Shown here piece by piece: positions 2,518 to 38,243 of a stretch of 64,000 nt of DNA. A program made the translations under genes and the position numbers. The notes below the pieces were generated by a model. It was not told the DNA's origin. It searched no databases and saw only the letters and a program-made list of their open reading frames with translations. Source of the stretch: Candidatus Pelearchaeum maunauluense (GTDB taxonomy: Archaea > Thermoproteota > Nitrososphaeria_A > Caldarchaeales > Caldarchaeaceae). The stretch's first letter is position 1. The number at the start of each line of letters is the position of its first letter. The stretch lies in assembly GCA_030059675.1 (NCBI GenBank), contig JANVYQ010000002.1:144260-208259 (forward strand), in the 5' to 3' direction.

Positions 2518-3186
2518 TTAAACAGCCTCGGCGGGGAGTAGAGACTCAAGCATGACATCCTCTATGTCTGACTCTAGCCTACGCGCAAATTCCTCCTTAA
2601 ACAGAATCTTCACCTCATCTAGATTGTAACTTCGGCCTTTAATTTTCTGAAGCGATGTTATCACGCTACTCTCCATACCACAAGGCCTTATACGTGTGAA
2701 ATATGAGAGGTCTGTATTCACGTTGAGCGCTATACCATGGTATGTTACCCAGTGTTTTACCGCAAGTCCTATTGATGCTATCTTTTTCCCACCAACCCAC
2801 ACACCAGGCATACCCTCAACACGCGAGGCCTCAACGCCCAGCCGACGTAGGGTCGCTATACAGCTCTCCTCAAGAATATTCACAAACTCTTTAACACCCA
2901 GCCCACGCTTGTTAAGGTCTATTATAGGATACGCAACCATCTGGCCTGGCCCGTGATAGGTCGCGTCCCCGCCTCGCTCAATACGATAAACAGGAATACT
3001 CCAGTCCAGTATGTTATGCTCGTCGCCTTTCCTGCCTAATGTGAAGACGTGGGGGTGCTCCACGAGAAGTAGCAAGTCTCCGACTTTTTCTTGTATTCTT
3101 AGCTCAACCAGCTTTAGCTGAAGGTTCCAAGTCCATTCATAGTCCGCATACCCAAGGTCGCAGCATACTATTTTAGCGCGGGGCAA
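2518..3186 (-). CDS. lipB: Lipoyl(octanoyl) transferase LipB
   Basis: Transfers octanoyl groups from acyl-carrier protein to the lipoyl domain of 2-oxoacid dehydrogenases; LipA then inserts the sulfurs. The family signature RGGDATYHGPGQ is present at about residues 71-82, the active-site lysine in GGKKIASIG, and the catalytic cysteine in IRPCGMESSV. Length of 222 aa is normal for LipB, and this pattern distinguishes it from the ligase LplA. The start overlaps the end of the E3 gene by 14 bp, so it is cotranscribed with the complex it modifies. Confidence 0.94.
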   Translation of the reverse strand: MPRAKIVCCDLGYADYEWTWNLQLKLVELRIQEKVGDLLLLVEHPHVFTLGRKGDEHNILDWSIPVYRIERGGDATYHGPGQMVAYPIIDLNKRGLGVKEFVNILEESCIATLRRLGVEASRVEGMPGVWVGGKKIASIGLAVKHWVTYHGIALNVNTDLSYFTRIRPCGMESSVITSLQKIKGRSYNLDEVKILFKEEFARRLESDIEDVMLESLLPAEAV

Positions 3187-4570: not shown

Positions 4571-4609
4571 ACCCCAACACCAGCATAGCTAGCTTATAGT
4601 TATGCGTTT

Positions 4610-5779
4610 TTAGATTATCATGAGGGCTGGGTTCTCAAGATATCGTTTGAGCCTGTTCATGAAGCGGCTTACGTAAGCGCCATCCACTACACGATGGTCA
4701 AAAGTTAGTGCTAATGTTATCTCTGGTCTTATTATGAGCTGGTCTCCCTCTACTGCTGGCCGTTTCTCCACACGGCCCACGCCGAGTATGGCTACCTCTG
4801 GATAGTTTATTATTGGCGTTCCGCTAAGCCCCCCTATCGCCCCGTAGTTGGTTATGCTGAATGTACCGCCGCTAACGTCTTCCAGCTTTAGAGCACCGCG
4901 CCGCGCCCTGTCTACCAGCTCGCTAATCTCAACCGCAAGAGTTATGACATCCTTACTCTCAACATTCTTAACGACGGGAACCAGAAGCCCCTCAGGCGTA
5001 TCAACAGCGACGCCAAAATTATAATGCTTGTAGACTACTATCTCCTGCTTTTCATCATCAACCGTAGCATTAAGCATGGGGAATTCCCCAAGACTCTTAA
5101 CCAGCGCCTTCATGATGAATGGCAGGTAGGTTATCTTGACGCCGCGCTCCTCGGCAATTTGCCGCGCCTCGTCGCGAAGTCTTATCAACTGAGTCACATC
5201 AATATACTCGAAAATCGTTACTGGGGCAGCGCGGGATACTGATTTTACAAGCCTTTCTGCTATCATTCTACGTAAGCCGCGGAGCGGTATTCTCTCCTCG
5301 CCGACGATGGTCTCAGGCCTGGTGGCTGTTATTGTTGGTGGCGAGCTTGCCGCCTTTCGCACATCCTCCTCGGTTATCCTTCCACCAGGTCCCGTACCCT
5401 TGATGATAGAGAGGTCTACTCCTAACTCGCGAGCTAGCTTTCTTACTGCTGGCGTTGCTAGGACGCGCTGTTCTTGCGGCCTTGTTGGCTGTGCCGTCTG
5501 TGTTGCTGGTTGCCTAGGTGTTGTTGGGGTTTCGGCTTGTTCCTGGCTTGTCTGAATCTCTGCTATGGGTTCGCCTACCTTGACCACCTGCCCCTCGCGA
5601 GCGAGTAGCTTGACTACCTGCCCCTCATATGGGGATGGAATCTCCACATTCACTTTCACCGTCATAACCTCAACGAGGGGCTGATACTTCTTTACAAAGT
5701 CCCCCTCCTTAACCAGCCACCTGATAATCTCGCCCTCGCTAATACCTTCACCAATATCAGGAAGTTTTAGCAGGGTCAT
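4610..5779 (-). CDS. 2-oxoacid dehydrogenase E2 (dihydrolipoyl acyltransferase)
   Basis: Core acyltransferase of the complex. The N-terminal lipoyl domain (about 1-76) carries the lipoylation site VMTVKVNVEIPSP with K42. A Pro/Thr/Gln-rich linker (about 80-105) follows, then a peripheral-subunit-binding domain (ATPAVRKLARELGVDLS, about 109-145). The catalytic domain (about 165-389) ends with DHRVVDGAY, which contains the HxxxDG motif. One lipoyl domain and 389 aa match archaeal and Gram-positive branched-chain or pyruvate types. Substrate (pyruvate, branched-chain or other 2-oxoacid) cannot be assigned from sequence alone. Confidence 0.95.
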   Translation of the reverse strand: MTLLKLPDIGEGISEGEIIRWLVKEGDFVKKYQPLVEVMTVKVNVEIPSPYEGQVVKLLAREGQVVKVGEPIAEIQTSQEQAETPTTPRQPATQTAQPTRPQEQRVLATPAVRKLARELGVDLSIIKGTGPGGRITEEDVRKAASSPPTITATRPETIVGEERIPLRGLRRMIAERLVKSVSRAAPVTIFEYIDVTQLIRLRDEARQIAEERGVKITYLPFIMKALVKSLGEFPMLNATVDDEKQEIVVYKHYNFGVAVDTPEGLLVPVVKNVESKDVITLAVEISELVDRARRGALKLEDVSGGTFSITNYGAIGGLSGTPIINYPEVAILGVGRVEKRPAVEGDQLIIRPEITLALTFDHRVVDGAYVSRFMNRLKRYLENPALMII

Positions 5780-5792
5780 GGGAGTTCACCGC

Positions 5793-6770
5793 TTAGAACG
5801 AGACGGCCCTTTTGATAGCATCTAATATACGCCTCTCGTTGGGTAGGTATAAGTGTTCATGAACTAGGGGGAATGGTGTGTCGTAGCCCGCCACGCGTAT
5901 AATCGGCGATTGTAGGCTCAGGATTTCCCGCTCTGCTATGAACGCCGCTATCTCCGCACCGAATCCACATATCTTCGGAGCTTCATGGACTATAATAGGC
6001 CGTCCAGTCTTGCGCACGGTCTTTATTATCGCCTCACCGTCGAAAGGAAGTAGAGACCTCAAATCAAGGACTTCTACGCTTATTCCTTCTTTCTCGGCTT
6101 TCTCCGCTGCGGCTTCACACTCATACACCATCGCTCCATACGTTATCAGAGAAACATCACTACCCTCGCGAACGAGGCGTGAAACGCCTATTGGGACTGT
6201 ATAATCACCTTCGGGAACCTCGCCCTTCACGCTGCGGTAAATCCTCTTAGGCTCAAAGAATATTACGGGGTCTTCATCCCTTATGGCTGAGATAAGTAGC
6301 CCCTTGGCGTCGTATGGCGTTGATGGTATAACTACCTTAAGCCCAGCGGTGTGTATAAAATATGCTTCTGGGCTTTGGGAGTGGTGTAGCCCTCCCTTCA
6401 CACCTCCGCCGTAGGGTGCTCTTATGACGAGTGGTGCAGAGAACTGCCCACCAGACCTGTAGCGTATCTTCGCTATGTTTGAGACTATCTGGTCAAACCC
6501 GCCGTATATGAAGTCGGCAAACTGTATCTCGGCAACAGGCCTAAGGCCGTAGATTGCCATTCCGAGCGCAACGCCTACTATAGCTGATTCTGCTAGAGGG
6601 GTGTCTATAACCCTGTCGGGACCAAACTCCTCATACAACCCCTCGGTGCAGAGGAAGACGCCGCCTCTACGGCCCACGTCCTCGCCCATCACGATAACCC
6701 TATCGTCGCGCCGCATCTCCTCGCGGAGAGCCTGATTTATCGCCTGGGCGAGTGAAATAACCGCCAACAC
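5793..6770 (-). CDS. 2-oxoacid dehydrogenase E1 beta
   Basis: Beta subunit of the heterotetrameric thiamine-diphosphate decarboxylase. Recognisable elements are [12 protein letters not shown], the loop [32 protein letters not shown] and the C-terminal [16 protein letters not shown]. Length of 325 aa is standard. The alpha gene ends 10 bp upstream and the E2 gene begins 13 bp downstream. The annotated ATG gives a short [20 protein letters not shown]-terminus, as expected. Confidence 0.95.
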
Positions 6771-6780
6771 CTCTCACCTC

Positions 6781-7869
6781 CTAAATAAATCTAGAGAACT
6801 CATCACGCTCTTCAGCCAAGTGCCATGGCTCGCTTTCATAGACATCGGCAAATATTACATCAGGCTTGAGTGGCCGTTTTCGCTCCGCTTTCTCAATCTC
6901 GAGCTTAATGTCTTCTTCAATCTCCTCATGGAGCTTTGCGTCATCTTCCTCGCTCCACAGGCCGCGCCGTATTAAAAAGCGCTTAAACCTTGCTATGGGG
7001 TCTCTCTCCCGCCATTTCTCAACCTCCGCATGTTCCCTATAGCGGCTGGGGTCGTCTGCCGTTGTGTGAGGACCAAGCCTATATGTGAAGGCCTCTATGA
7101 GGGTCGGCCCCTCACCCCGCCGCGCCTTCTCAATAGCGCGTTTAGTCGCGGAATAGCAGGCAAGAACGTCGTTTCCATCAACCCACACGCCCTCAAAACC
7201 ATACGCAACAGCCTTCTCGGCTATTGTTTTAGTAGCGGTCTGCCGCGAGAACGGGCATGATATTGCATATTGGTTATTCTGGCAGAAGAAAACTACAGGT
7301 GCTTTGAAGACGCCAGCGAAGTTAAGTGCTTCATGGAAATCACCCTTGGATGTCGCTCCATCGCCAAAGTATGTTATCGCAACGGCTTTCTCTCCCCTAT
7401 ACTTTGCGGCCATAGCAAACCCTACAGCCGTAGGTATCTGCATACCCACAGGAACAGGAGCGGGAACTATCTTATGCCGCCTACTGCCATAGACAGCCAT
7501 ATCATGACCATGTAGTGGGTCTTCCTCGTTGCAGAATTGGCGGTTTAGTATCTCTGAAATCGGGACTCCCCGCGCTATGTAGACAGGTATCTCGCGGTAT
7601 GAGGGGAAGACCCAGTCCTCTGACTCCAGTGTGTGCGCGCTTCCCACCATAGCGGCTTCCTGCCCCTCGCTGGGAGCATGTATGGCTACGCGACCCATGC
7701 GTTGAAGCCGCATAAGCCAGCTATCAAGACGGCGGGCAAGAACCATATCCCGATACATCTTCAACATCTGCGAGGTGGAGAGTTCGGGTAAGTGCTCCTC
7801 GTCAGCTGAGCCGTCTAATGAGATTATCTGAAACGCCCCCATCACGCATCCAACTATAGACATTTGCAT
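6781..7869 (-). CDS. 2-oxoacid dehydrogenase E1 alpha
   Basis: Alpha subunit, which binds thiamine diphosphate and decarboxylates the 2-oxoacid. The ThDP motif begins at GDGATSKGDFHEALNFA and runs to the QNNQYAIS asparagines. The phosphorylation-loop region YRLGPHTTADDPSRYR and the conserved PSYREIPV are also present. Length is 362 aa from the listed ATG. ATGs at 7863 and 7842 are plausible alternatives, because AT-rich TATA-like boxes lie at about 7875-7895. The conserved region starts near residue 30. Confidence 0.94.
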   Translation of the reverse strand: MQMSIVGCVMGAFQIISLDGSADEEHLPELSTSQMLKMYRDMVLARRLDSWLMRLQRMGRVAIHAPSEGQEAAMVGSAHTLESEDWVFPSYREIPVYIARGVPISEILNRQFCNEEDPLHGHDMAVYGSRRHKIVPAPVPVGMQIPTAVGFAMAAKYRGEKAVAITYFGDGATSKGDFHEALNFAGVFKAPVVFFCQNNQYAISCPFSRQTATKTIAEKAVAYGFEGVWVDGNDVLACYSATKRAIEKARRGEGPTLIEAFTYRLGPHTTADDPSRYREHAEVEKWRERDPIARFKRFLIRRGLWSEEDDAKLHEEIEEDIKLEIEKAERKRPLKPDVIFADVYESEPWHLAEERDEFSRFI

Positions 7870-25729: not shown

Positions 25730-27105
25730 AAAAATCTCCTCACAAACGTCATTAGGTCTTTTTCCTCATTCACCAGCCTATACAACTCCTCAAGGTTTGT
25801 AATTATCTTACATTCATCAAATTCTTTCTTAAGACCGTGAGCTATCTTAATCTCACCGCTGGTTAGCATCTTCCTAAGTATTTCATCAACCTTCACTTCT
25901 TCACGACGCTTAACTACATACAACCTATCTCCCCATATCCACGGACCAGCAACACTGGTTTTACTTCCTAAGTGCCTATCAATGAAGTTAAGCGCCTGCT
26001 CACGATAAACCTCTGGTCCTTGATGTAGATATATTCTGGGTAGCTCGTTACTTGCCAACTCATACATGATTACAGCTTTATTCTTCTCGTCACTCCAAAC
26101 ATCCCACCGCCAGACTTCAATTTTCTTATTTACTAATGCCCTCTCAATACCGCGGGCAGAGCTTTTCAGCTCACCCCAGATAACATCAGGAGGCTTATCT
26201 CTCTTCAGCGGTAGGAGAATAATGAGAAATGAACGGCCAGCAACTTCGCTAACGTTTATTATGTTATTGATTGTTATGAAGAATTTTATAGAAGGTTTTC
26301 TGGTAAAAAGCTTGGCTAATAGTATAAACTCTGCCAGCTTTTGGCGCGTTATTGCTGAAGCAACATTCCGCAAATAATCTACTGGGTCGGGAACTATTAG
26401 GGGGGAGTTTGGGAATAGTTTAAGTAATTCATTTCTAGTGGGCATGTCTTCTTCAATTCTAACAACTACTGGCGGTTTCCACCTTACTACACTATTGAGA
26501 AGGTTCTGTAGCGTTTCAAACTTGATTATGAGTAGCTCGCATAGGTAGCCGCTGAAGCCTCCAATCCTTATCTCTGCTCCATATAGATTTGCAGCCTTGA
26601 GCAGCGCTTTAAGAAGCCTAACTTCATCACGCTGTCTAGCAGAGATGCGTGATTTAACATAAAGCGTGTGGTAAGGAGTTCTATCAACGGCAGATATTAT
26701 CCGCGTGGGCTCCACATGATAGCATGGTACTATATTTATGCGCACATTATCTATGAAGCCCTCTACGTATGGATGCTCAGCATGTCTCAGTCTAAAGCTG
26801 CCTCCTAAACCCGTAATAACTCTACGGCCTGCTTCTAAAGCTTCCTTCTCCAGAATTTCGCGTTTAGTCTCAGGGCTATACTGTATAAATATGTCTATTT
26901 CAGGACTGTTACGAAGCCATGTCCCCTTGGCGAAAGAACCCTCAACACTTACGTTAATGATGTTGCTGCCCTTCAAAAATTCTCTAAGTGCCGCGCTAAG
27001 ATCCTCAGCCAGCTCTGATAACTTAGCCTCCTCAGCAGAACTAGGCTTAATACCCGACAAAACCTCTTCCAATACTCGCTGAATATCAGAGGACATTGCC
27101 ACCAT
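25696..27105 (-). CDS. cca: Class I CCA-adding tRNA nucleotidyltransferase
   Basis: Adds or repairs the CCA 3' end of tRNAs. The catalytic motif GSFAKGTWLRNSPEIDIFI provides the two carboxylates, with INIVPCYHV as the third strand. The tail/body domains include RDEVRLLKALLKAANLYGAEIRIGGFSGYLCELLI. 469 aa matches archaeal class I enzymes. Overlaps thpR by 20 bp. Confidence 0.95.
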   Translation of the reverse strand: MVAMSSDIQRVLEEVLSGIKPSSAEEAKLSELAEDLSAALREFLKGSNIINVSVEGSFAKGTWLRNSPEIDIFIQYSPETKREILEKEALEAGRRVITGLGGSFRLRHAEHPYVEGFIDNVRINIVPCYHVEPTRIISAVDRTPYHTLYVKSRISARQRDEVRLLKALLKAANLYGAEIRIGGFSGYLCELLIIKFETLQNLLNSVVRWKPPVVVRIEEDMPTRNELLKLFPNSPLIVPDPVDYLRNVASAITRQKLAEFILLAKLFTRKPSIKFFITINNIINVSEVAGRSFLIILLPLKRDKPPDVIWGELKSSARGIERALVNKKIEVWRWDVWSDEKNKAVIMYELASNELPRIYLHQGPEVYREQALNFIDRHLGSKTSVAGPWIWGDRLYVVKRREEVKVDEILRKMLTSGEIKIAHGLKKEFDECKIITNLEELYRLVNEEKDLMTFVRRFLCGRPSLLQEQ

Positions 27106-27658
27106 GCTTTAGTAAATCCGAGTATATAGGCCCACTGGGCGTTAAGACGCTCTTCTTCAAGCATATGTATTCTATTTTCTGCGTTCCATAGTCTTCGGAC
27201 TGGTGTTCTGAAATTAGCTGTATAAGCCTTTGCTTTTCTCTGACGCTCTTTACACGGGCTATTGTGAGGTGTGGTGTAAAACGTTCTTTTTGAAAGCCGA
27301 GATTTGCCAACCTTGTCTGGAGCTCCTCCCCCACCCGCGTGAGAGACCCGCTTTGGTCTTCAACCCCTATCCATACAACATTAACCCTTCCACCGCCTGG
27401 AAAATAGCCTAATCCACGTAGCCTAATCTCAAAGGTATTGAAACTAATGCTCCGCATAGCTTCTTTAACCTGCTCAATCTTTGACTGGGCGATTTCACCT
27501 AGAAATTTTAACGTGAGATGAAGATTCTCAGGTTCAACCATCTTCATAACGGCTGTTCTAGATGATTCTAACATTCCTTGGGTAAGGCGGATTTTCTCCA
27601 CTATTGATGGTTCATTTACATCCACTGCAACAAACGCTCTTATTAGATTCTTTGACAA
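27086..27658 (-). CDS. thpR: RNA 2',3'-cyclic phosphodiesterase (ThpR/LigT)
   Basis: 2H phosphoesterase. The two HxTx motifs are HLTLKFLGEI near residue 47 and HLTIARVKS near residue 130. The N-terminus IRAFVAVDV is typical. 190 aa. Gap to tmk is 4 bp. Members hydrolyse 2',3'-cyclic ends or ligate tRNA halves in vitro; the operon with cca supports an RNA role. Confidence 0.93.
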   Translation of the reverse strand: MSKNLIRAFVAVDVNEPSIVEKIRLTQGMLESSRTAVMKMVEPENLHLTLKFLGEIAQSKIEQVKEAMRSISFNTFEIRLRGLGYFPGGGRVNVVWIGVEDQSGSLTRVGEELQTRLANLGFQKERFTPHLTIARVKSVREKQRLIQLISEHQSEDYGTQKIEYICLKKSVLTPSGPIYSDLLKHGGNVL

Positions 27659-27662
27659 GCCT

Positions 27663-28346
27663 CTAACCCACCCTTATTCTAAGAGCTTTTTCCCTGCGCC
27701 TTATTAGGTCATTAGCTATTTTATCAGCGTTACCTTTGAGTGCTCCATCGCGGTTTTCAACCCATATAACCTTCTCAGGGTTCATGTTTTTAAATTCTTC
27801 ATAGAGTTTCAGAGCCTTGTTCTGGAGTTGTGTATCCAGCTCATATGTAATGTCTGGCCGTTCTTGTTTTGCGCTGAGTCTTCTCAGTCGTGTCTCCTCA
27901 TCTACTACTACGACAATATATGCGTCGGGTTTTATGAATATTTTACTGCCTAGCTTCTCCACTAGGTTTAGAAAGTTTTTCAACTCAATGCTGCTTAATG
28001 GTGTGTTTGTTCTTTTTTCAATTAGGGCAAGCCCGTAGATGATGGAGCATAGGTAATACCTGTCTATAAAGTAGAATGACGGCTTGTCATGTTCTATGGC
28101 GTTGGACATGGTTGTGCTGTCGTCTGATGTGTTGGCGAGAAATAGGAACATCCTGGTTAAGGGGTCTATCATGGCCGAGTTTCCTACTATTTTTGCTATC
28201 CTGCCAGTGGCCGTGTCGCTGGGTGTCTTATAACGTCCTACACGATATCCTCTCTTCTCTAGAATCTTAGAAACCTCCTCAAGTAGGGTTGTCTTCCCAG
28301 CCCCATCTATCCCCTCCCAAACGACCACAAACGTGTAGCTAAGCAT
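27663..28346 (-). CDS. tmk: Thymidylate kinase-like
   Basis: Phosphorylates dTMP to dTDP. Walker A VWEGIDGAGKTTLLEEV at the N-terminus, DR-motif FYFIDRYYLCS, and LRRLSAKQERPDITYE resembling the lid. 227 aa. First gene of the tmk-thpR-cca-kinase operon and divergent from the CBS gene. Confidence 0.88.
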   Translation of the reverse strand: MLSYTFVVVWEGIDGAGKTTLLEEVSKILEKRGYRVGRYKTPSDTATGRIAKIVGNSAMIDPLTRMFLFLANTSDDSTTMSNAIEHDKPSFYFIDRYYLCSIIYGLALIEKRTNTPLSSIELKNFLNLVEKLGSKIFIKPDAYIVVVVDEETRLRRLSAKQERPDITYELDTQLQNKALKLYEEFKNMNPEKVIWVENRDGALKGNADKIANDLIRRREKALRIRVG

Positions 28347-28451
28347 TCCCAGCGCAATAGCTGCGTGTCTCTATTAAGCATATACCCAGCATACCCAGCC
28401 AAACAAAAATTAATAGCGCACTAGATACAAGAATACTATGGTGATAGGTTA

Positions 28452-28871
28452 TTGCCCATAACGGTTAGGGTAAGAGATGTGATGGACCAAAACGTAATAT
28501 CCGTAGAGGCGGATAAGAGCGTTAGCGATGCTATTAAAAAAATGCTCCAATCAGGTGTATGGTCGTTGGTGGTTGAGAAAGATGGCCTCCCTATAGGTGT
28601 TGTAACGGAGAGAGATACTCTAAGGCGCTGTATAAGCAAGGGGCTAAATCCAGATAAAGTTAAGGTGGAGGAGATAATGAGCTCGCCTCTAATAACTATA
28701 GGGCCAGACGCCACTCTAGGCGAGGCTATGATGAGGATGGTTGAGAAGAAGATTAGGCGCTTATACGTCGTTGAACACGGTAAGATAATAGGAAGAATAA
28801 CCCAGACAGGGCTCTTCGAGAATATGCTAAATATAATGATGGCACTTTCAACAGTGCCCTACCAGCTCTAG
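28452..28871 (+). CDS. Tandem CBS-domain protein
   Basis: 139 aa, two CBS motifs: VRDVMDQNVISVEADKSVSDAIKKM with GVVTERDTLRR, then VEEIMSSPLITIGPDATLGEAMMRM with IIGRITQTGLF. Binds adenine nucleotides in known members. TTG start preceded by gataggtt. A stand-alone regulator; partner unknown. It is the last intact core gene before the degraded patch. Confidence 0.88.
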   Translation: MPITVRVRDVMDQNVISVEADKSVSDAIKKMLQSGVWSLVVEKDGLPIGVVTERDTLRRCISKGLNPDKVKVEEIMSSPLITIGPDATLGEAMMRMVEKKIRRLYVVEHGKIIGRITQTGLFENMLNIMMALSTVPYQL

Positions 28872-28975
28872 TGAGATGAGCGAACCGCGAAATAGATAAA
28901 TGGATAAATTTAGCCTGTTAAGCTAGACAGTTCGGTATGGGAATAGCATTAGAGGTACCTTAGTTTAAGTTAAAC

Positions 28976-29247
28976 GAACTCTTGACGGAATTAGAACGAC
29001 TGGGTTGGAGCAGGTCTCCAAGTGGTGACGAAACGTATAGAGAGAAAGTGGTTGATAAGTGGATTTGGAGCGGTTTATACGAGCGTTCAGAAGGCTATAT
29101 TATATATTCAAAAGTTATGTTGAAGGATATCAAGATGAGGAATATGCGTCACATCACAGAAAGGGTGTTCGGTTGTTAGAGAATGAAGTCTTAAAAGTAG
29201 CTAACAAATTGGAGTTACGGATGATATCTAGCAGACTTTTAGATTAA
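28976..29247 (+). pseudogene. Possible frameshifted small gene, unknown
   Basis: Two overlapping short frames (28982-29179 and 29059-29247) each look protein-like in complementary parts: LERLGWSRSPSGDETYREKV in the first, then RRLYYIFKSYVEGYQDEEYA and NEVLKVANKLELRM in the second. One frameshift near 29060 would join them into about 90 aa. No family recognised. The rest of the 28.87-29.29 kb stretch shows nothing. Confidence 0.3.
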
Positions 29248-29288
29248 ATACCTTGTTAACACTATAATCGTAAATAAATCATCTCTCG

Positions 29289-29705
29289 TTAGCTTTTAGT
29301 ACCTGCTACCTTCACTCCCCATATGCTCTCATACAGTTTGACTATGGAGATATAATCTAGTTCGCTCAACCCCATGGCCTTGCACTCCGTGAAAAGGTCC
29401 CTTACAGTACTAGCTATAGGCGTAGGGAACCCTAGCTCCTCAGCTATCTCCATAGCTAGCTGTATGTCCTTGAGCGTCAGGTCCACTGTGAAGTGTCGTT
29501 TGAAATCGGCTTTCAGGACTTTCTCGCTCTTGTTCTCGATCACATAGTTGTTAAAGACTGTCGTCTTCCATATGTCTATAGCTTTACCTGGGTCAACGTC
29601 TGCCTTAGCCATGAATGAGAGGATCTCTGCGAAGCTAGCTGCCATCATCCAAAGGTAAAGGTTCAACAAGATCTTGACTACTGAGTAAGAAGTTGTTGGC
29701 TTTGT
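29289..29705 (-). pseudogene. C-terminal fragment of a beta-hydroxyacid dehydrogenase (HIBADH family)
   Basis: About 135 residues match the C-terminal helical domain of 3-hydroxyisobutyrate/6-phosphogluconate-type dehydrogenases: VVKILLNLYLWMMAASFAEIL, KADFKRHFTVDLTLKDIQLA and the EELGFPTPIASTVRDLF end. The Rossmann domain is missing. The ORF runs on to 29801, but that part is antisense to another fragment. The break lies close to 29700. Confidence 0.75.
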
Positions 29706-29949
29706 AAGACGATGGAGTAGGGTGGCTACACAAGAGGTAGCGTCCCTGCTCGATATAACGAAGGATGAAGCGTATGAGATGCTGAAGTCGATAAGTAGCA
29801 AAGGTCTAGTTTATAGTATGAAAGCAGGAAACGATTACTTCTGGCTAGCAAAGATGAAAACATCCTGCGATCCTGAGAACGGGAGTATGCAACGCTCAGT
29901 TGTAGAAGGACCCCCTCCAGAGGCAAAGAACGAAGATCACCTAACGTAG
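29706..29949 (+). pseudogene. Winged-helix DNA-binding fragment
   Basis: In frame from the 29.7 kb break: VATQEVASLLDITKDEAYEM followed by LKSISSKGLVYSMKAGNDYF, the shape of a winged-helix transcription regulator. No start precedes it; the track's start at 29722 is internal to the first helix. It ends at a stop before the next gene, with a low-complexity tail (EGPPPEAKNEDHL). Parent gene unknown. Confidence 0.45.
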
Positions 29950-30328
29950 ATGATGCCGAAACCTAGAGGTGATAACATGTCAGTTCCATGGCCTCTAAAC
30001 TACACAAAACAAAGGACGATGAAAATAACTACGAAAGGCAGGAAGACAAGAAAGCACCATACTGTAACAGTATGGTTCGGAGTTGACGACGAAGGAAGGC
30101 TGTTCGTGTCTTCTTTGAGGAATAGAGACTGGTTAAGAACATATAGCTAACCCCGAGGTTGAGGTCACAATAAAAGGGATAACACGTAGGATTAGGGCCG
30201 TAGTGGCTGAATCCGAGGAGGATAAGCAGCTTATACGAAATATTTGGAGGAAGAAATATGGAATAATGGCTAGGATTATGCGGTTGCCTAGGGAAGATGG
30301 AATTAGCTTCGAGCTTAAGGAGGCGTAG
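29950..30328 (+). pseudogene. Deazaflavin (F420)-dependent nitroreductase-family gene with a +1 frameshift
   Basis: The first frame (29950-30150) gives ITTKGRKTRKHHTVTVWFGV and RLFVSSLRNRDWLRTYS then a stop. The next frame from 30146 continues ANPEVEVTIKGITRRIRAVV and WRKKYGIMARIMRL to a TAG at 30328. Together they form one small F420-binding split-barrel protein of the Ddn/DUF385 type. The shift lies at about 30141-30147, in acatatagct. Confidence 0.75.
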
Positions 30329-30331
30329 CCC

Positions 30332-30907
30332 TTGCTCAGCTTCTGGGACATGGCATACCTAACAGGCCTAGCTCCGTGGGATAGCGGTGAACCGCTAAGA
30401 GAGCTAGTTGAAATGGTTAAAAGAGGAATGATAAAGCCATCTAAGGTACTAGATATAGGGTGCGGTACTGGGTCTAATGTGGTTTTTCTCGCCTCAAAGG
30501 GATTTGAGACACATGGGCTAGATATATCTAGGGTAGCCCTAGCGAAGGCCAGCAAGAGAGCAGCTGCTAAAGGCGTTAAATGCTTTCTCCACCATCTCGA
30601 TTTCAGGGACGCAGATAAAGTCAGCAAATTAGGCGATTTCGACCTAGCTATAGACGTTGGATGCTACCATAGTCTACCGAATGGAGCGGACAGGCTACGC
30701 TACATCAACTCGCTAAACAAGGTGCTGAGGAAAGGTGGAGAATACTTCCTATGGTGTTTCGTGAGGGGTAAATCCTTTAGCTGGGGACCGCCAGGAGTAT
30801 ATGAGAATGAAATAGAACAGAACTATAGAGAACGCTATGATATACTTGAGAGTCACAGGATTAACACACCATTCAGAGATATGCTCTTTACCACATGCGT
30901 AAGGTGA
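30332..30907 (+). CDS. Class I SAM-dependent methyltransferase
   Basis: 191 aa, apparently intact. Motif I is VLDIGCGTGSNVVFLASKG; motif II acidic residue GLDIS; GDFDLAIDVGCYHSL and LRKGGEYFLWCFVRG follow. TTG start 4 bp after the preceding pseudogene stop, with taaggagg about 8 nt upstream. The family includes thiopurine/tellurite-type small-molecule methyltransferases. It is the only undamaged gene in this patch. Confidence 0.82.
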   Translation: MLSFWDMAYLTGLAPWDSGEPLRELVEMVKRGMIKPSKVLDIGCGTGSNVVFLASKGFETHGLDISRVALAKASKRAAAKGVKCFLHHLDFRDADKVSKLGDFDLAIDVGCYHSLPNGADRLRYINSLNKVLRKGGEYFLWCFVRGKSFSWGPPGVYENEIEQNYRERYDILESHRINTPFRDMLFTTCVR

Positions 30908-30917
30908 GTTAGAATAG

Positions 30918-31604
30918 ATGAAGGTTACCGTCGAGTTCTTCCACGACGTGTTATGTGCTTAGTGTTATTGCCTATTTCCCCGCATGAGGAGAATAGTTGC
31001 TAAATTTCCTCAAGTTGAGGTAGTTCACAGGTGTTTTGCCCTGGCACCTGAGCCCGATAGCGTAGCGAGGATATTCGGTAGCAAGGAAAGGGGCAAGAAA
31101 GAGATAATGCGACATTGGAGGGCTGCAAATATGAACGACGATGAGCATAGGATAAATGCGGACCTTATGGAGAGCAGAGAGTTTGACTATCCGTACTCTA
31201 TGCCGGGTCTGAAGGCGTGTAAAGCAGCCGAAATCCACAGGGGGCAGTTAGGACACTGGGATATGTTCGACAGGGTACAGAAGGCCCATCTCACTGAGTG
31301 CAGTAACATATCGGAAACTAGAGTTCTAGTAAACTGCGCAATTGATATAGGCCTAGACGTTAATAGGTTCGTTAACGACCTCAACAGCGAGAGAGTTAGT
31401 TACATGGTTTGGAGGGATATAGAGGAGGCTAGGAAGCTAAATATATACGCCGTCCCAACCCCAGTTATAAACAGGAGATATATCGTACAAGGAGCAATTA
31501 ACACGAGTATCTTAGAACTTATCTTTGAACAGCTCGTGGAGACGGGTGAGGTGCTAACACCGTTCTCCGGCGTTGTAGCTATTTTAAAAGGTGGTAAGGC
31601 GTGA
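30918..31604 (+). pseudogene. DsbA/FrnE-family oxidoreductase gene interrupted by TAG in its active site
   Basis: From ATG 30918 the frame reads VTVEFFHDVLCA-stop-CYCLFPRMRR. The stop (30960-30962) stands where the family has Trp in a CxWC-type motif. The same frame continues to 31604 with the DsbA-like helical insert and LNIYAVPTPVINRRYIVQGA, carrying the cis-proline. TGG to TAG is one transition. The track's start at 30984 is only the first Met after the stop. Probably a pseudogene. Confidence 0.8.
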
Positions 31605-31835
31605 CGCATTATCTAGCTAAAGCAAAGCCCATTAACGGTAAATTCGACGAATTTTATTTGGATTTTTGTTTGATTGTTGTCAAGATGGGGAGACGAAAGA
31701 CCTTTTAACCAGAAGAAGCATACTTCATTAGCAGCTAAGCCAAAGCCCTTCTAACGAGATAGTTGGGGAGGGCTTGATGGGAATAATATAGAATTATCCC
31801 AAAAAGGATTTGTCATAGAACTAGTTGCTATGTTA

Positions 31836-32370
31836 TCATACTCCAATCCTCAGCATTACTACTAACAAGATAACTATTACGCCGAGGATTATGTTTATCT
31901 CCGACATTACTTTTATGTTCTTTTGAGCTTTCTGAGCGTATTCAGGAGAAGCACCTTTAGCAAGCTTTAGACTCATCTTGGTTATAGCTAATCCGATTAC
32001 AACCATAATTAGAAATATTGACATTTTAGCAAGTAATATTAAGCCATATGTGATTGTTAATAGGACACTGAGCGTCAGGGCACCCAATAATTAGCTTTAA
32101 TTAAGCCCGTTATCGCTACAAGTATAATCGCTCCCCAGACTAGGGGCATGAAACGCTTCACAAGGGCCTGATTAATTAGTCTAGCTTGTTCTAGCGAACG
32201 ATTACTAACTGGGTTAACCGGCTTAAGAGCCGGCTGTAAGATCACATCAAAGAATATTGCACCATCCATCCAAAAATAACCGCTATCAGATGCAACCAGC
32301 CGAGTATTAGATTGATAAAATCGACCAAGCCTATCTCCTTAAGTGGTAAGTTTAGCAATGGTGGCTTCAT
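31836..32370 (-). pseudogene. CopD-like integral membrane protein, spread over three frames
   Basis: Three consecutive minus-strand frames each encode part of one membrane protein. The first is DFINLILGWLHLIAVIFGW, the second GAIFFDVILQPALKPVNP through FMPLVWGAIILVAITGLI, the third GALTLSVLLTITYGLILLAK to the C-terminus. One frameshift is in a TTTTT run near 32270, the other near 32085. The HLIAV...FFD..L.PAL pattern resembles CopD/DUF2269-type proteins. Start probably near 32370. Confidence 0.65.
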
Positions 32371-32384
32371 CAACGAAGCATATG

Positions 32385-32595
32385 AACTCTGCGGAAAGTT
32401 ATAAGCGCGTAATGGATTACTACGCATACGTAGCTAGAAACGACTTGGCGGTAGTTACCGCACAAACCGATGTAAAAGGCGATAGGTCGAAAAGACCTCA
32501 TGAGCAGGTAGACCCTGCTCTTTACTTAAAGGTAGATGAGGTCACCGATGAGGACATAGTGGTTTCAGGGGCCAGGGCTCACACGACCCAAAGCA
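32385..32595 (+). pseudogene. Internal fragment of a 4-hydroxyphenylacetate 3-monooxygenase (HpaB)-family gene
   Basis: About 68 residues: SYKRVMDYYAYVARNDLAVV, HEQVDPALYLKVDEVTDEDI and VVSGARAHTTQSIA fit the HpaB/4-hydroxybutyryl-CoA dehydratase flavoprotein family. Full proteins are near 480 aa; both ends are missing. Beyond about 32590 the plus-strand ORF is antisense to the reductase fragment. Confidence 0.65.
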
Positions 32596-32596
32596 T

Positions 32597-33191
32597 TGCA
32601 GTGGATCTCAGGCGCGTTGCACTGATAAACGCAGCTAGAAACTGTTATCTTATGCTTCCTCGGGAGATTCGAGTACTTCCTATTGCCGTATATGTAATTT
32701 GCTATTTCGTAAACTGTCGGTCTAGTATCGAACAACTCCTCCGGGTTTACTCCAGCTAACGGGTAGCCTGTTACATTTCTAACTACATCACCACACCCAC
32801 CAGCGGTAGTCAGCCCACCCTCCGACAGAAGAGAGAAGACCTCAGGTACGTCCTCCATCCTTATCCAATGGAGCTGTATGTTCTGCCTATTCGCTATCTC
32901 CGCGTAACCCCTACCGAAGTGCTCCGATATCTCACCTATAACCCGTGCCTGCTCTGGTTTCAGAATTCCGTTTGGTATCTTTATTCTCATCATGAAGTAC
33001 CCTAACCTCGGCTTGTCGTGATAAAGTCCCCACCATTGAAGCCTCACCATGTCTTCTTCCGCTACAGCCTCGTAACCTCTCTCCATCAGCTCTAGAACTT
33101 CGTCTAAGACGTCTAAAGGGGGAACTTCTCGGCCTTCATTCTCTCTAGGGTTTCGCCTTATTACTTCCTCGTAGCTAGGCTCGCTAGACAT
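32597..33191 (-). pseudogene. N-terminal half of a nitrite/sulfite reductase, truncated
   Basis: About 198 residues from the ATG at 33191 match the siroheme reductase N-terminus: RLQWWGLYHDKPRLGYFMMRIKI, the half-domain EHFGRGYAEIANRQNIQLHWI, GLTTAGGCGDVVRNVTGYP and KITVSSCVYQCNAPEI. The protein breaks off just inside the [4Fe-4S]/siroheme cysteine region, where it runs into the HpaB fragment. Families are usually more than 400 aa. Not functional as it stands. Confidence 0.8.
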
Positions 33192-33228
33192 GGCTTTTTA
33201 AATCACCTGTTACTGTCCCCCTATTATC

Positions 33229-33238
33229 TTTATATAAA
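33229..33238 (+). promoter_or_regulatory. TATA box of the COG1325 gene
   Basis: tttatataaa centred near 33234. An archaeal transcript would start about 25 nt downstream, at 33258-33262, which coincides with the ATT codon proposed as start of the RNA-binding protein gene. This suggests a leaderless mRNA. Confidence 0.6.
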
Positions 33239-33258
33239 TCTAATCCAATAGCACTCTT

Positions 33259-33642
33259 ATTGTTATCAGGGTAGAGGCTCCAGTCTATTTAACCGAGGAT
33301 GAAGAGAAGGTAGTTGAAGCAATAAAGAACATCTTTCCAAAATTCAATATTTCCTCCACCCAATATGAAGATTTGACAATACTCCATGGAGAAGGAAGCG
33401 GCCGCGAGCTTTTGGAGAAGCTACGTATGGTTATACGGTCGCGACGGATAAGAGCAGCTGCGCGTTCCTTCATGATGCAGAGAATAGACGATGGTATTCT
33501 TGTTTTTCTCTTAAATAAGCAAGCCGCCTCTGTGGGAAAAGTATCATTCTGCGAAAACGCGCAAGAAACCCCATTAGGCGCGATTAAGGTTACTATAAAG
33601 GGCGAAGGATTACGCGACTTGGTTGAGTGGCTTACAGAATAA
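33259..33642 (+). CDS. COG1325-type RNA-binding (exosome-associated) protein with a probable ATT start
   Basis: The track start (33373) truncates a clear family member. In frame upstream are IVIRVEAPVYLTEDEEKVVE and AIKNIFPKFNISSTQYEDL, the conserved N-terminal half; downstream LLNKQAASVGKVSF and PLGAIKVTIKG complete it. From the TAA at 33241 to the domain there is no ATG, GTG or TTG. ATT at 33259 gives 127 aa, the usual size, and sits where a leaderless transcript should begin. Either an AUU start, or the original start was lost when the neighbouring patch changed. Confidence 0.78.
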   Translation: MVIRVEAPVYLTEDEEKVVEAIKNIFPKFNISSTQYEDLTILHGEGSGRELLEKLRMVIRSRRIRAAARSFMMQRIDDGILVFLLNKQAASVGKVSFCENAQETPLGAIKVTIKGEGLRDLVEWLTE

Positions 33643-33644
33643 GA

Positions 33645-34568
33645 CTAATCTTCGGGATATGGGATGGAATAGCTCAGCAAATCCTCGGCTAGATAAGCAT
33701 TAGAGAAAATGGTCCTTGCTTCTCTCACTAGTATCTCCGCATCCTCCTCATATCGGGGGCTTATGTGATATAAGTAAAGCATTTTAACGCCTGCCCGTGC
33801 AGCGACTTCAGCTGCTTGCCGCGCAGTAGAATGCCCATCTTCAACCGCTTTTTTAACCATATCATCATTAAACGTAGAATCGTGAATAAGAACATCAGCT
33901 TCTTGAGCAGCATTAATGATAGACTCGCATGGCCGCGTATCGCCTGTATAGACTATTTTCCTACCACGCCTACGCGGACCTACGGCCTCTTCAGGAGTTA
34001 TAATCCGCCCACCATAATTGATCGACTGACCGCGCTGAAGCCTACCCCATAGAGGCCCCCGCGGGATGCCAAGCTTCTCCAAATACTCGACATTCATCTT
34101 GCCAGGCCTATCCCTCTCCTGAACTACATAACAATAACTCTCGATAACATGATCCGCTGGAACGCATCTAATGCTCAAACCTCTTCTCTCGATTGTGAGG
34201 AAGGGTGAGACTGTATGGACTCTGACTGGAAATGTTAAAGCACCTAGCCTATGCGATATTACAGTCTCTAGATATTCGGCCAATCCTCTGGGGCCGTAGA
34301 TATCCACGGGCGCCTCGCGGTCTAGCATACCCATGGTGTATAGAAGGCCGGGGAGACCTAGGACGTGGTCGCCGTGCATATGGGTTATGAAGATTGTGAA
34401 GTTTTGTTTAAAGCCTAATCTACTCTTTATGAATTGGCGTTGTGTCCCCTCTCCGCAGTCGAATAACATTACTCCACCCGCGTAGCGTATTGCGGTAGCT
34501 GGAAGGCCGCGTGAGGTTGTTGGCATACCTCCCCCTGTTCCGAGGAAGACTAAGCGCATTTCAGTCAT
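33645..34568 (-). CDS. rnz: Ribonuclease Z (tRNA 3'-endonuclease)
   Basis: Cuts the 3' trailer from pre-tRNA. N-terminal RLVFLGTGGGMPTTSRGLPA, zinc motif FITHMHGDHVLGLPGLL, further metal ligands in YTGDTRPCE and LIHDSTF, and the C-terminal LYHISPRYEEDAEIL. The arm region is present in RGQSINYGG. 307 aa, typical. Overlaps the Trm-G10 gene by 4 bp. Confidence 0.95.
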   Translation of the reverse strand: MTEMRLVFLGTGGGMPTTSRGLPATAIRYAGGVMLFDCGEGTQRQFIKSRLGFKQNFTIFITHMHGDHVLGLPGLLYTMGMLDREAPVDIYGPRGLAEYLETVISHRLGALTFPVRVHTVSPFLTIERRGLSIRCVPADHVIESYCYVVQERDRPGKMNVEYLEKLGIPRGPLWGRLQRGQSINYGGRIITPEEAVGPRRRGRKIVYTGDTRPCESIINAAQEADVLIHDSTFNDDMVKKAVEDGHSTARQAAEVAARAGVKMLYLYHISPRYEEDAEILVREARTIFSNAYLAEDLLSYSIPYPED

Positions 34569-35602
34569 CGCTGTAACACCACAATCTCACGTGTCAGGCT
34601 CTTATGGACATAAACGCTGTAAGATTCCAATAAATTAAATCCAGACCTATCAGCCATGTCAGCTATTCCACTACCCCGCGGGTAGGCCATGACTATCTTG
34701 CCATCTCTAGCGAGTAGATAATCAACTTCTGATAGAAAGCGATTTATTAAATTGGTAAAAGATTTGCCTGGAATTGTGGAGGAGCGGCCATAAGGCGGGT
34801 CTGTTACTACGGCGTCAAATTCTGCTCTAAGAGGGGCTTTTCTTGCATCAGCTTGGATGATATTCTCACGACTAGGTATGTATGTGGATAGGTTAGTTAA
34901 TGCGCCTCTGCATATCCATCCTTTGAGTTCAAGACCTATAGCTATATGGCCCATAAGCGCTGCCTCTATAAGTATAGAACCAGTCCCGGCAAAGGGGTCA
35001 AGTATCTTGTCATCTACACTGCCCACAGCCAGATTTACCATACATCTAGAGAGCTTGGGCTGCAAAGCAGATGGTATGGTGAATGGTCTTTTCCCAGCCC
35101 GCCTCTCATTAAACCCCTTTCCAACCAATACATTTTTCATCAGACCAATAACAAATGCATTAGGAGATACTATTACAGAGAAAATAAAATCGGGATTGGT
35201 AAGGTTTAGTTTTAATCCAACATTTTGAGCAAGTATGTTGGATGCGAGACGTTTTTCAATCTCCATGGAATCAACATCCACGCCTTCAATCCTAAATACG
35301 CGACATCTAAAACTTCGTCCATAAACTCCCGATGAAACCGAATCACCAATAACTACTTCATTAACGGCATTCTTAAACTCATTACTCCTGCCCCACGCTA
35401 TAGCTATCCCAGAAAGTTTGGTGTATGCGGTCCGCTGCATTAGTTTATCTATTTTGTCTGGCGGGAGATTGGATAGCGCTATACGCTGGTCTAAAAGCGA
35501 TGGCCTCTCTTTATGCGAGAGCATATTATGCAGGGCACATAACTCACCATAAGCGAGAGTTGGGTTTTCGCCTGATAATAAGAAAAATGATGAATAGCCC
35601 AT
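34565..35602 (-). CDS. tRNA (guanine-N2)-methyltransferase, Trm-G10/Trm11 family
   Basis: Methylates G10 of tRNA. N-terminal THUMP-type region (about 1-150), then the Rossmann methyltransferase: DPFAGTGSILIEAALMGHIAIG (SAM site) and catalytic VVTDPPYGRSS. 345 aa is normal for archaeal members. Translationally coupled to rnz (ATGA) and 12 bp after prs, so tRNA processing genes share a transcript. Confidence 0.92.
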   Translation of the reverse strand: MGYSSFFLLSGENPTLAYGELCALHNMLSHKERPSLLDQRIALSNLPPDKIDKLMQRTAYTKLSGIAIAWGRSNEFKNAVNEVVIGDSVSSGVYGRSFRCRVFRIEGVDVDSMEIEKRLASNILAQNVGLKLNLTNPDFIFSVIVSPNAFVIGLMKNVLVGKGFNERRAGKRPFTIPSALQPKLSRCMVNLAVGSVDDKILDPFAGTGSILIEAALMGHIAIGLELKGWICRGALTNLSTYIPSRENIIQADARKAPLRAEFDAVVTDPPYGRSSTIPGKSFTNLINRFLSEVDYLLARDGKIVMAYPRGSGIADMADRSGFNLLESYSVYVHKSLTREIVVLQR

Positions 35603-35614
35603 TTGGCATCTTCA

Positions 35615-36499
35615 TTATTCTCTCTTTACATGCTGGGCTATTAGTGAAGCTATATCAACTTCCGCATATCTGTTGGGTATTGTATTTGTAGCTACTAGCT
35701 TTTCCGCTCCAGCTTCTAGAAGTCTTTTATCAGCATCACCAACCATCAACGCATGGATGCAACTCACTACTATTCTCCCAGACCCGAGCTTCTTCAGAGT
35801 TTTTACAGTTTTAATAGCTGTCCCGCCAGTGCTTATAATATCATCCACAAACAAAACGTCCCTATCCTTAACATCTGCCTCAATGATTACTTTTACCTCT
35901 CCAGTATGTGTATTGCGCTCGCTACGCACTGGAGCAAAGTCCGTTCCTATTTCCTTAGCAGCTATAGATGCCATAGCCTCGCCTTTTTTACCAGGCGATA
36001 TTATTAATGGGTCGCTTAAGCCTAGGTTATGTGTATATTTTGCCAGCAATCCTGTGGCGTCAAGATTTGCTACAGGTATTGGGGTGTGTTGAAGTATCCA
36101 GGGAGAGTGTATATTCACTGTAATTATCTCATCTATGCCAGCGTATTTAAACATCTTTAATATCGTCTCTATACTTATGGCTTCACCTTCGAGGAATCTC
36201 TTATCCTGTCTCGCGTATGCCATGTATGGAATTATAGCTACTATACGAGAGGCGCCCAGATTCTTCAGGTTATCCACCATGAGCAAGAGTTGCATTATAT
36301 GCCTGTCCTGTGGTGGGTGAGTGCCCTGAACTATAGCTACTTCTCTTCCTTCCACGCTGCTCTCCAGCCTTAGATAAGACTCGCCATCAGGAAATAGCTT
36401 GAACTCCAGCTTTCCCAGCTCCAGCTGGGCTAGTCTGGCTATCGCCTCCCCAAGCTCGCGTGATGCTGGGCCAGGAATCAGAAGCACGAGAAACACCAT
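35615..36499 (-). CDS. prs: Ribose-phosphate pyrophosphokinase
   Basis: Makes PRPP from ribose-5-phosphate. The flexible-loop motif is YARQDKRFLEGEAIS; the PRPP site VLFVDDIISTGGTAIKTV and the ATP-region FPDGESYLRL are present. 294 aa, as for archaeal class forms. Start MVFLVLLIPGPASRELGE is the expected beginning. Confidence 0.95.
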   Translation of the reverse strand: MVFLVLLIPGPASRELGEAIARLAQLELGKLEFKLFPDGESYLRLESSVEGREVAIVQGTHPPQDRHIMQLLLMVDNLKNLGASRIVAIIPYMAYARQDKRFLEGEAISIETILKMFKYAGIDEIITVNIHSPWILQHTPIPVANLDATGLLAKYTHNLGLSDPLIISPGKKGEAMASIAAKEIGTDFAPVRSERNTHTGEVKVIIEADVKDRDVLFVDDIISTGGTAIKTVKTLKKLGSGRIVVSCIHALMVGDADKRLLEAGAEKLVATNTIPNRYAEVDIASLIAQHVKRE

Positions 36500-36540
36500 A
36501 ATAAGTACGAAAAGCCAAAATAAAGAGTATGAAGCTAAGG

Positions 36541-37251
36541 CTATTCTAGAATTATCTCAAGCCGCCTATTTCTCTTCCCCTTATTCTCCAGCTTGGCGAG
36601 TTTTATAGAACCTACTTCACGCGTGTTTTTTACATGTGTCCCGCCGTCAAGCTGGGCGTCAAAGCCAGCGATTTCTACTATACGTAGGACTGGCTCGTTT
36701 GGTATTAGGTCTGGCCTCACTCTTATAAGCCCGCTCATGGCCAGCGCTTCTTCACGGCTTACGAAACGGTAAACCACGTCTCTACCCTCTCCAACTATCT
36801 TATTCGCAAGTTCAATTATCTCTGCCGCCTTTTCTTTGTTGAGAGATTCAAGCGATATATCCATACGTGCTCTATCTCTATATATCTGGCTACCTGTTAT
36901 CTGTACATCAGAACCATAAAGATGATAAACCGCACCACTGATTATATGGAGTGCTGTGTGATGCCGCATATGGGCGTAGCGCAGCTCCCAGTCTATAACC
37001 GCCCTAGCTATATCACCTACATCAGGTTTCTGGTCTGGAATAATATGGATAACTTTACCAGAGTCTTTAACTACTTCAGTAACTTCATATATAGAATCAC
37101 CGACGACTAGTTTCCCCCTATCACTTGGCTGCCCTCCTCCGCGTGGATAGAAAATAGTCCTATCAAGAACTACTCCAGCGTCTAAGACTTCCATCACCTT
37201 GGCGTCAGCCTCGCGTAGGTAGCTGTCTTTAAGATAGATGAGCTCAGTCAT
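36541..37251 (-). CDS. alaX: AlaX-type alanyl-tRNA editing protein
   Basis: Free-standing deacylase that removes Ser/Gly from tRNA-Ala. The glycine-rich RTIFYPRGGGQPSDRG, zinc motif MRHHTALHIISG (HxxxH) and SIKLAKLENKGKRNRRLEI end match AlaX-M. In the second metal motif the usual CxxxH cysteine position reads DGGTHVKN, so the third ligand differs. 236 aa. Confidence 0.9.
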   Translation of the reverse strand: MTELIYLKDSYLREADAKVMEVLDAGVVLDRTIFYPRGGGQPSDRGKLVVGDSIYEVTEVVKDSGKVIHIIPDQKPDVGDIARAVIDWELRYAHMRHHTALHIISGAVYHLYGSDVQITGSQIYRDRARMDISLESLNKEKAAEIIELANKIVGEGRDVVYRFVSREEALAMSGLIRVRPDLIPNEPVLRIVEIAGFDAQLDGGTHVKNTREVGSIKLAKLENKGKRNRRLEIILE

Positions 37252-37298
37252 ATCCTACGCACACACGCCAACTCCGCTCTACGTGTTTCCTGAGAAAG

Positions 37299-37307
37299 CT
37301 TATATAC
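37299..37307 (+). promoter_or_regulatory. TATA box before the 48-aa ORF and ParB-like gene
   Basis: cttatatac, centred about 30 bp before the ATG at 37333, within the divergent gap with alaX. It would give a nearly leaderless transcript for the small ORF, followed by the 246-aa gene. Confidence 0.5.
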
Positions 37308-37332
37308 GTTTTGCACTACTACTTGAATAGGG

Positions 37333-37479
37333 ATGAGCGAAACAATCCAGAGAGAGCTTGAAGAGTTGAAGCTACCGATATGCGAGTCAACGTTGATGCC
37401 AGTCTTCGACGAATATACGTACATCCACCACAACGCAATAGATATCGGCGTCTTCAAATACATAGAGCGCGCGCCATAA
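37333..37479 (+). CDS. 48-aa small protein (below the ORF-track cut-off)
   Basis: ATG to TAA, 48 residues, MSETIQRELEELKLPICEST at the N-terminus and an acidic/aromatic middle (FDEYTYIHHNAIDIGVFKY). It starts at the expected distance from a TATA box and ends 23 bp before the next gene on the same strand. No family recognised. Could alternatively be a leader for the 246-aa gene. Confidence 0.5.
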   Translation: MSETIQRELEELKLPICESTLMPVFDEYTYIHHNAIDIGVFKYIERAP

Positions 37480-37502
37480 CAACATAGGGGTAACTAGGCT
37501 GC

Positions 37503-38243
37503 ATGTCTTACGGCTACGACGAGTTCGAGTCAAAGGTCGGACAGTTTATCTATACAATGGTTATGTATGAACGTCTCAAGGAATATCTCTTAGAGAGGGT
37601 TAAAGGCAGGGGTAAGGTCTCTTTAAGGATAAACTTGGGAACAGATAAGTCTGGGAACACTGTATTCATGGATGTTATGCTTACTGCTGTGAAACCTCAG
37701 ATGATAACGCCTTCAGTCGAGGAATCTAGGTGGAAGGGCCGTAAAACGCTGATTATGGTTTTAACTAATAGCGAAAATCTAAGTGGAGATTCGCGGCAGA
37801 TGGCTGAAGAGATGGAGCGCCTGTTGCTGGAGAGCTTGCGGTGGTGGCATGGTTATTTTGGGGAGCGTGATAAGCTTAAGCTGGGTAGCTGGAAACCTGA
37901 TGTTGTAATGATGCTTGATGCAGAGAGCGCCGAAGTGATAGCAGAAATACCAGTGGAGAGGATAGTAATTCCACCCAATAGGAGAGTAACGCTATCTCCT
38001 GAAAAACTGGAGAAGCTTTCGCAATACGTTGATTTACTCTCTCCCATAACTGTTAGAACTGCCGAATCAGGCTTCTATGAGCTTGTAACAGGCTATCCCC
38101 AGCTCGCTGTATATGTGGAGAAGCTAGGAGCAGATACCGTGAAGGCGCGCGTGCTGGATATAAGTGAAGAGGATGCTGAGAGAATATACGAGGCGTCATC
38201 CGCTACTATGAACAAGCTCGTGGAACTTCTCACATCATCTTAA
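37503..38243 (+). CDS. Unknown protein with a C-terminal ParB-N/sulfiredoxin-like domain
   Basis: 246 aa. The N-terminal about 140 residues are unrecognised: an amphipathic start and a WW-rich ESLRWWHGYFGERDKLKLG. Residues about 155-230 follow the ParB N-terminal fold pattern: VERIVIPPNRRVTLSPEKLE, then LSPITVRTAESGFYELVTGY and LGADTVKARVLDISEEDAER. Where ParB has its CTP-binding GERR, this protein has GYPQL, so the nucleotide site looks altered. Follows the 48-aa ORF. Confidence 0.6.
   Translation: MSYGYDEFESKVGQFIYTMVMYERLKEYLLERVKGRGKVSLRINLGTDKSGNTVFMDVMLTAVKPQMITPSVEESRWKGRKTLIMVLTNSENLSGDSRQMAEEMERLLLESLRWWHGYFGERDKLKLGSWKPDVVMMLDAESAEVIAEIPVERIVIPPNRRVTLSPEKLEKLSQYVDLLSPITVRTAESGFYELVTGYPQLAVYVEKLGADTVKARVLDISEEDAERIYEASSATMNKLVELLTSS

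Follow-up and report, generated by a model that had tools for sequence, protein, structure and literature searches.

The UPF0201 locus

Within the 64-kb stretch of DNA analysed here (the window), which belongs to a Candidatus Pelearchaeum maunauluense genome of 1,786,704 bases in 21 contigs (G000), an open frame of the PF01877 family lies behind an in-frame stop, TAA at 33241-33243. As an earlier note on this DNA had stated, and as direct reading confirms, the frame lacks an ATG, GTG, or TTG at its head. Past the TAA it reads TCC AAT AGC ACT CTT ATT GTT ATC AGG GTA GAG GCT CCA, and the earliest in-frame ATG, GTG, or TTG is the TTG at 33373, which opens a frame of 89 residues and is the start that a standard gene caller would be expected to pick. 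The conserved N-terminus had also been placed directly past the stop. However, homology to relatives begins at 33265, and comparison with a sister genome identifies the seven codons from 33244 to 33264 as foreign insert DNA. The original beginning of the gene is found on the other side of this insert (Table 1).

Table 1. Features of the interrupted locus and of the inserted DNA (window coordinates)
Feature	Position	Strand	Evidence and remarks
CBS-domain protein gene	28452..28871	+	Pfam CBS 1.4e-27; 97% aa identity to sister; adjoins UPF0201 gene in relatives
Stranded original UPF0201 start	28876..28899	+	ATG AGC GAA CCG CGA, then insert AAT AGA TAA; encodes MSEPRNR*
Insertion, foreign gene fragments	28891..33264	.	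4,374 bp; left boundary ambiguous by about 1 bp; missing from sister
3-Hydroxyisobutyrate dehydrogenase-like fragment, C-terminal part	29289..29667	-	Pfam NAD_binding_11 1e-22; next block from 29668
Block collinear with G018 and G002	29668..31653	+	70-71% DNA identity to L058/L059; translations compared with L058-L060
CopD-like fragment with frame change	31724..32384	-	Pfam CopD; 68% to G000:C12:834-1501
HpaB-type hydroxylase, internal fragment	32384..32606	+	Pfam HpaB_N 3.9e-22; homology to L063/L048 stops near 32600
Ferredoxin-nitrite/sulfite reductase (NirA-like), 5' fragment	32589..33191	-	ATG at 33191; Pfam NIR_SIR_ferr 6e-21
TTTATATAAA, palindromic TATA box in insert	33229..33238	-	42 nt upstream of NirA-like minus-strand ATG
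ATT, start codon proposed earlier	33259..33261	+	Within insert
UPF0201 (PF01877) remainder	33265..33642	+	Codon 6 to stop; open frame; 94% aa identity to sister

The sister, Candidatus Pelearchaeum sp. S146_89_esom (genome G001; contig L033/L057 region, WAQC01000007.1), carries an uninterrupted UPF0201 gene. This gene begins ATG AAC GAA CCG CGA ATA AAG GTA GAG GCT, and its ATG is located 4 nt past the stop of the CBS-domain gene. In the window, TGAG and the ATG AGC GAA CCG CGA of the stranded start come after the CBS gene, and the gene resumes at codon 6 with ATC AGG GTA GAG GCT at 33265. The start context of the sister, TAGTGAGATGAACGAACCGCGA, matches TAGTGAGATGAGCGAACCGCGA at 28869-28890, a motif that is unique in the window; the stranded start, GAGCGAACCGCGA, is found once, with 0 occurrences expected. 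Positions 1-2886 of sister contig L033 align to window positions 26005-28891 and positions 2891-7273 to 33270-37647, collinear and at 88% identity, and between these two blocks lie only four sister bases. Thus, the insert can be delimited to the 4,374 bp from 28891 to 33264, with an ambiguity of about 1 base.

The CBS and UPF0201 genes are adjacent in the sister and in three other members of the same family (G002, G003, and G004). The adjacency in these three indicates that the uninterrupted state is ancestral and, together with a collinear sister that has no insert, that the insertion occurred in the lineage of the window. No second UPF0201 copy was found elsewhere in the 94%-complete genome, and an intact copy at another location was rejected on this basis. 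Among the 30 orthologue loci whose starts were compared, window copy included, 29 have a canonical start near the conserved N-terminus; the sole exception is the window copy.

Both halves of the gene are present, in order, and collinear with the uninterrupted relative. These sequence comparisons show with high confidence that the UPF0201 gene was split by the insertion of foreign DNA past codon 5 in the P. maunauluense lineage. The earlier note had offered, as its alternative reading, that a decaying patch destroyed the original start, and had named orthologue alignment as a check. The alignment, with an uninterrupted sister gene and window halves at 28876-28890 and 33265-33642, shows that alternative to be essentially right: the first five codons, start codon included, have been parted from the remainder of the gene by an insertion.

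A separate observation concerns start codons in the family as a whole. In several order-level relatives (L009, L010, L013, and L014), two or more codons close to the UPF0201 N-terminus, only a few residues apart from it, could serve as the start, suggesting that annotated starts in the UPF0201 family are probably unreliable.

Identity of the split gene

PF01877 spans the whole protein (E 7.4e-17; 62 bits versus a cut-off of 26.9; profile positions 2-119 of 120). Among the NCBIfam models, PRK00447 (UPF0201) scores 120 bits versus 22-26 bits for the PRK14555 RNA-binding models; the PRK00447 equivalog cut-off of 149 bits is not reached, yet this is by far the best NCBIfam model. The best solved relative is the UPF0201 protein SSO1042 (E 2e-18), with MTH689 at E 0.001. 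As judged by these matches, the split gene is a UPF0201 gene, with SSO1042 a nearer relative than the RNA-binding PAB1135 branch.

UPF0201 proper presumably corresponds to COG1931. PF01877/DUF54 has been linked to both COG1931 and COG1325, and RNA binding was considered unlikely for the UPF0201 structures (PMC2596488). PAB1135, on the other branch, has been shown to bind RNA (PMC2872656). The gene had previously been described as a COG1325 RNA-binding gene, and placement in the RNA-binding branch does not hold: PAB1135/MTH689-type proteins share its Pfam family but are not its closest relatives, as the scores for PRK14555 and MTH689 indicate. The distal frame matches UPF0201/PF01877 proteins (SSO1042, PH1010, AF_1395, and MJ1564) over nearly their full length; unlike them, the window copy has neither a start codon nor the first five residues, and it falls below the PRK00447 cut-off.

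Content and origin of the insertion

The insert consists of genes that are truncated at block junctions, frameshifted, or interrupted by a nonsense codon. Its first 400 bases (28891-29288) have no recognisable homologue in the Pfam and PHROGs families or in the relatives searched. The collinear block from 29668 opens with the 3' end of a DsbA-like gene, followed by a small gene that is frameshifted near 30138-30143, a SAM methyltransferase gene, and a second DsbA-like gene with a TGG to TAG nonsense change at 30960-30962, in the CxxC region. The TAG takes the place of the tryptophan codon of the C-A-W-C active-site motif; this tryptophan is present in the G002, G003, and G018 relatives. In the CopD-like fragment (31836-32339, minus strand) and in its 68%-identical relative on contig C12 (L062, G000:C12:834-1401), an apparent frame change occurs at about the same place, near 32090; the two may share an old frameshift, or the gene may be encoded in two frames.

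The insert as a whole has no match in the sister genome, and the NirA and HpaB pieces gave no match in the 8 relatives in which they were searched. The NirA-like fragment is 71% identical at the amino acid level to a longer gene in G014 (a 546-codon open frame; L061, G014:C1:763000-773000), a genome taken to be that of the co-resident Calditenuis fumarioli from the same fumarole sample. Although this is the closest reductase gene, its DNA identity is only 70%, and thus G014 was rejected as a recent donor.

Integration of a virus or transposon was also rejected. Pfam and PHROGs scans of insert frames revealed no integrase, no target-site duplication or terminal repeats were found (a 12-mer comparison of the ends gave the level of shuffled sequence), and no tRNA target was found at the insertion. 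Target-site duplication, terminal repeats, and an integrase are expected for a mobile element but are not required for a gene split. The locus resembles genes disrupted by horizontally acquired DNA, such as decaying genomic islands, in its clean insertion within a gene of a conserved pair, in its foreign fragments, and in its disabling mutations; unlike these, the window insert has no recognised integrase, transposase, target-site duplication, or tRNA target.

In the reading that we favour, the foreign stretch entered past codon 5 of a UPF0201 gene located directly behind the CBS-domain gene. It left ATG AGC GAA CCG CGA (28876-28890) behind the CBS gene and placed the remainder, 33265-33642, beside the promoter end of a truncated reductase gene, and it now consists of 4,374 bp of decaying gene fragments.

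The TATA box and the ATT codon

A TATA box had been reported at 33229-33238, and TTTATATAAA is indeed there, as its sole copy in the 64-kb window. Its centre lies 25.5 nt before the ATT at 33259. On the minus strand, a Shine-Dalgarno-like AGGTGAT lies between the box and the NirA-like ATG. A TATA box 42 nt upstream of a start codon with such an element between them is a normal arrangement for a leadered archaeal gene. Thus, given its position and the intervening AGGTGAT, TTTATATAAA was most likely in origin the promoter of the truncated reductase on the minus strand; weak activity on the plus strand is possible. Rather than being native to the UPF0201 gene and conserved among its orthologues, the box is part of the insert and is missing from the sister. 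A survey of 57 window genes revealed a small excess of TATA sequences near -30, too weak to serve as an argument.

The features of the junction are not surprising in themselves. By simple arithmetic, about 70% of 7-codon junction tracts would contain no canonical start, and about 14% of random in-frame codons at a predicted transcription start would differ from AUG by a single base. The coincidence of an AUU at this position is therefore mild.

Present state of the distal part

From codon 6 to the end, the comparison with the sister gives a pairwise dN/dS of 0.049, versus 0.033-0.174 for intact neighbours. Most of the eight amino acid differences are conservative, and nothing points to relaxed constraint. 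This ratio shows that the sequence was constrained for nearly the whole period since the two species diverged. Across the approximately 2 kb of its coding sequence that can be compared, the insert has roughly 2-3 disabling changes, suggesting an age of only about 0.005-0.01 neutral changes per site. In 59-79% of simulations at this divergence, chance alone leaves the 375-bp frame open. Since the insert looks young, the intact codons from 6 onward do not prove expression past the insertion. The distal part is most likely translated weakly or not at all, as a very recent pseudogene or a gene with, at best, weak expression. Against a disabled state stands the finding that the distal frame is open and as well conserved as its neighbours.

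Continued expression by another route is unlikely, though of the alternatives it fares best. Translation could begin internally, at a near-cognate codon or at the TTG at 33373, or a read-through mRNA could be weakly translated. The TTG does open a frame of 89 residues, and transcription reading through from the upstream CBS gene is conceivable in principle. However, the insert has genes on both strands, no Shine-Dalgarno-like sequence precedes 33259, and initiation at 33373 would delete the first 36 residues of the domain, a cost for which this TTG was rejected as the start.

The principal claim of the earlier note was a leaderless AUU start. Restated for an interrupted gene, a captured promoter would have rescued the distal part: transcription on the plus strand from TTTATATAAA would begin at about 33259, and the AUU would be translated without a leader. 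The product, MVIRVEAPVY..., would have the whole UPF0201 fold, with only the MSEPR tail lost. We regard both this start and this product as quite improbable. The spacing from the centre of the TATA box to A33259 fits, the frame is conserved, and initiation here would spare the entire domain to which solved relatives can be aligned. This residue is also where several order-level orthologues begin (ATG AAG ATT AAG ATT in L012, for example). The window thus resembles leaderless non-AUG archaeal mRNAs in that a near-cognate codon follows its TATA box at the spacing of a leaderless start, and a claim of a leaderless GUC start in Halobacterium is cited in PMC4574771. However, the palindromic box fits the minus-strand reductase with its AGGTGAT, and the conservation of the frame is uninformative if the insertion is young. 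Furthermore, archaeal leaderless reporters strongly prefer AUG, which makes AUU rescue unlikely: activity in Haloferax was 5-37 times lower with GUG than with AUG and could not be detected with UUG, whether or not a very short leader was present (PMC4574771). A review accepts AUG, GUG, and UUG as starts of archaeal leaderless mRNAs and makes no mention of AUU (PMC7531240); the leaderless starts described are AUG and then GUG/UUG (PMC7531240, PMC6412873), whereas the codon in the window is AUU. We found no case of an archaeal AUU leaderless start in the literature, and across 36 prokaryote groups, reconstructed switches from AUG to AUU amount to 1 in 61,358 (PMC5622118). Of the earlier interpretation, then, the part in which a patch destroyed the start has been upheld by the insertion, and the AUU start has not, since the TATA box and the ATT are both insert DNA, the box sits in the promoter position of the reductase, and leaderless reporters depend strongly on AUG.

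The remaining alternatives deny the interruption itself. The P. maunauluense genome (MAG 146_bin.21, order Caldarchaeales) comes from a Hawaiian fumarole and was assembled with metaSPAdes from a short-read metagenome (PMC10547907), a kind of assembly in which an uninterrupted allele in part of the population would stay invisible. This mode of assembly and the patchwork of fragments in the insert are consistent with a chimera behind which the real gene is intact. However, a chimera would need to exit at codon 5 and re-enter at codon 6 of the same single-copy gene. In addition, the only other match to the insert in its own genome is a 550-bp stretch on C12, 70% identical, and so no repeat is seen at the junctions that could mislead a k=77 assembly. 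A chimera is accordingly very unlikely. The sequencing or base-calling error considered by the earlier note, which would hide an ATG just upstream of 33265, has almost no probability, and was rejected because the true start is present at 28876 in its native context; the sequence just before 33265 is also not homologous to the upstream region of the sister.

Implications

The gene split is ordinary in kind, and the apparent loss of the start is an ordinary gene disruption that does not count as evidence for unusual translation initiation. A false lead for non-AUG leaderless initiation in the Caldarchaeales is thus removed, and the case shows why an odd start codon should be compared with a relative whose gene is uninterrupted. 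If the distal part did survive by means of a captured promoter, it would serve as a natural experiment on start-codon requirements in an archaeal order still unstudied, and AUU rescue, if true, would be a non-canonical start born from an insertion junction. What the locus provides, in a thermophilic archaeon that to our knowledge has no cultured representative, is a defined case of a gene cut by foreign DNA in which both halves are still readable.
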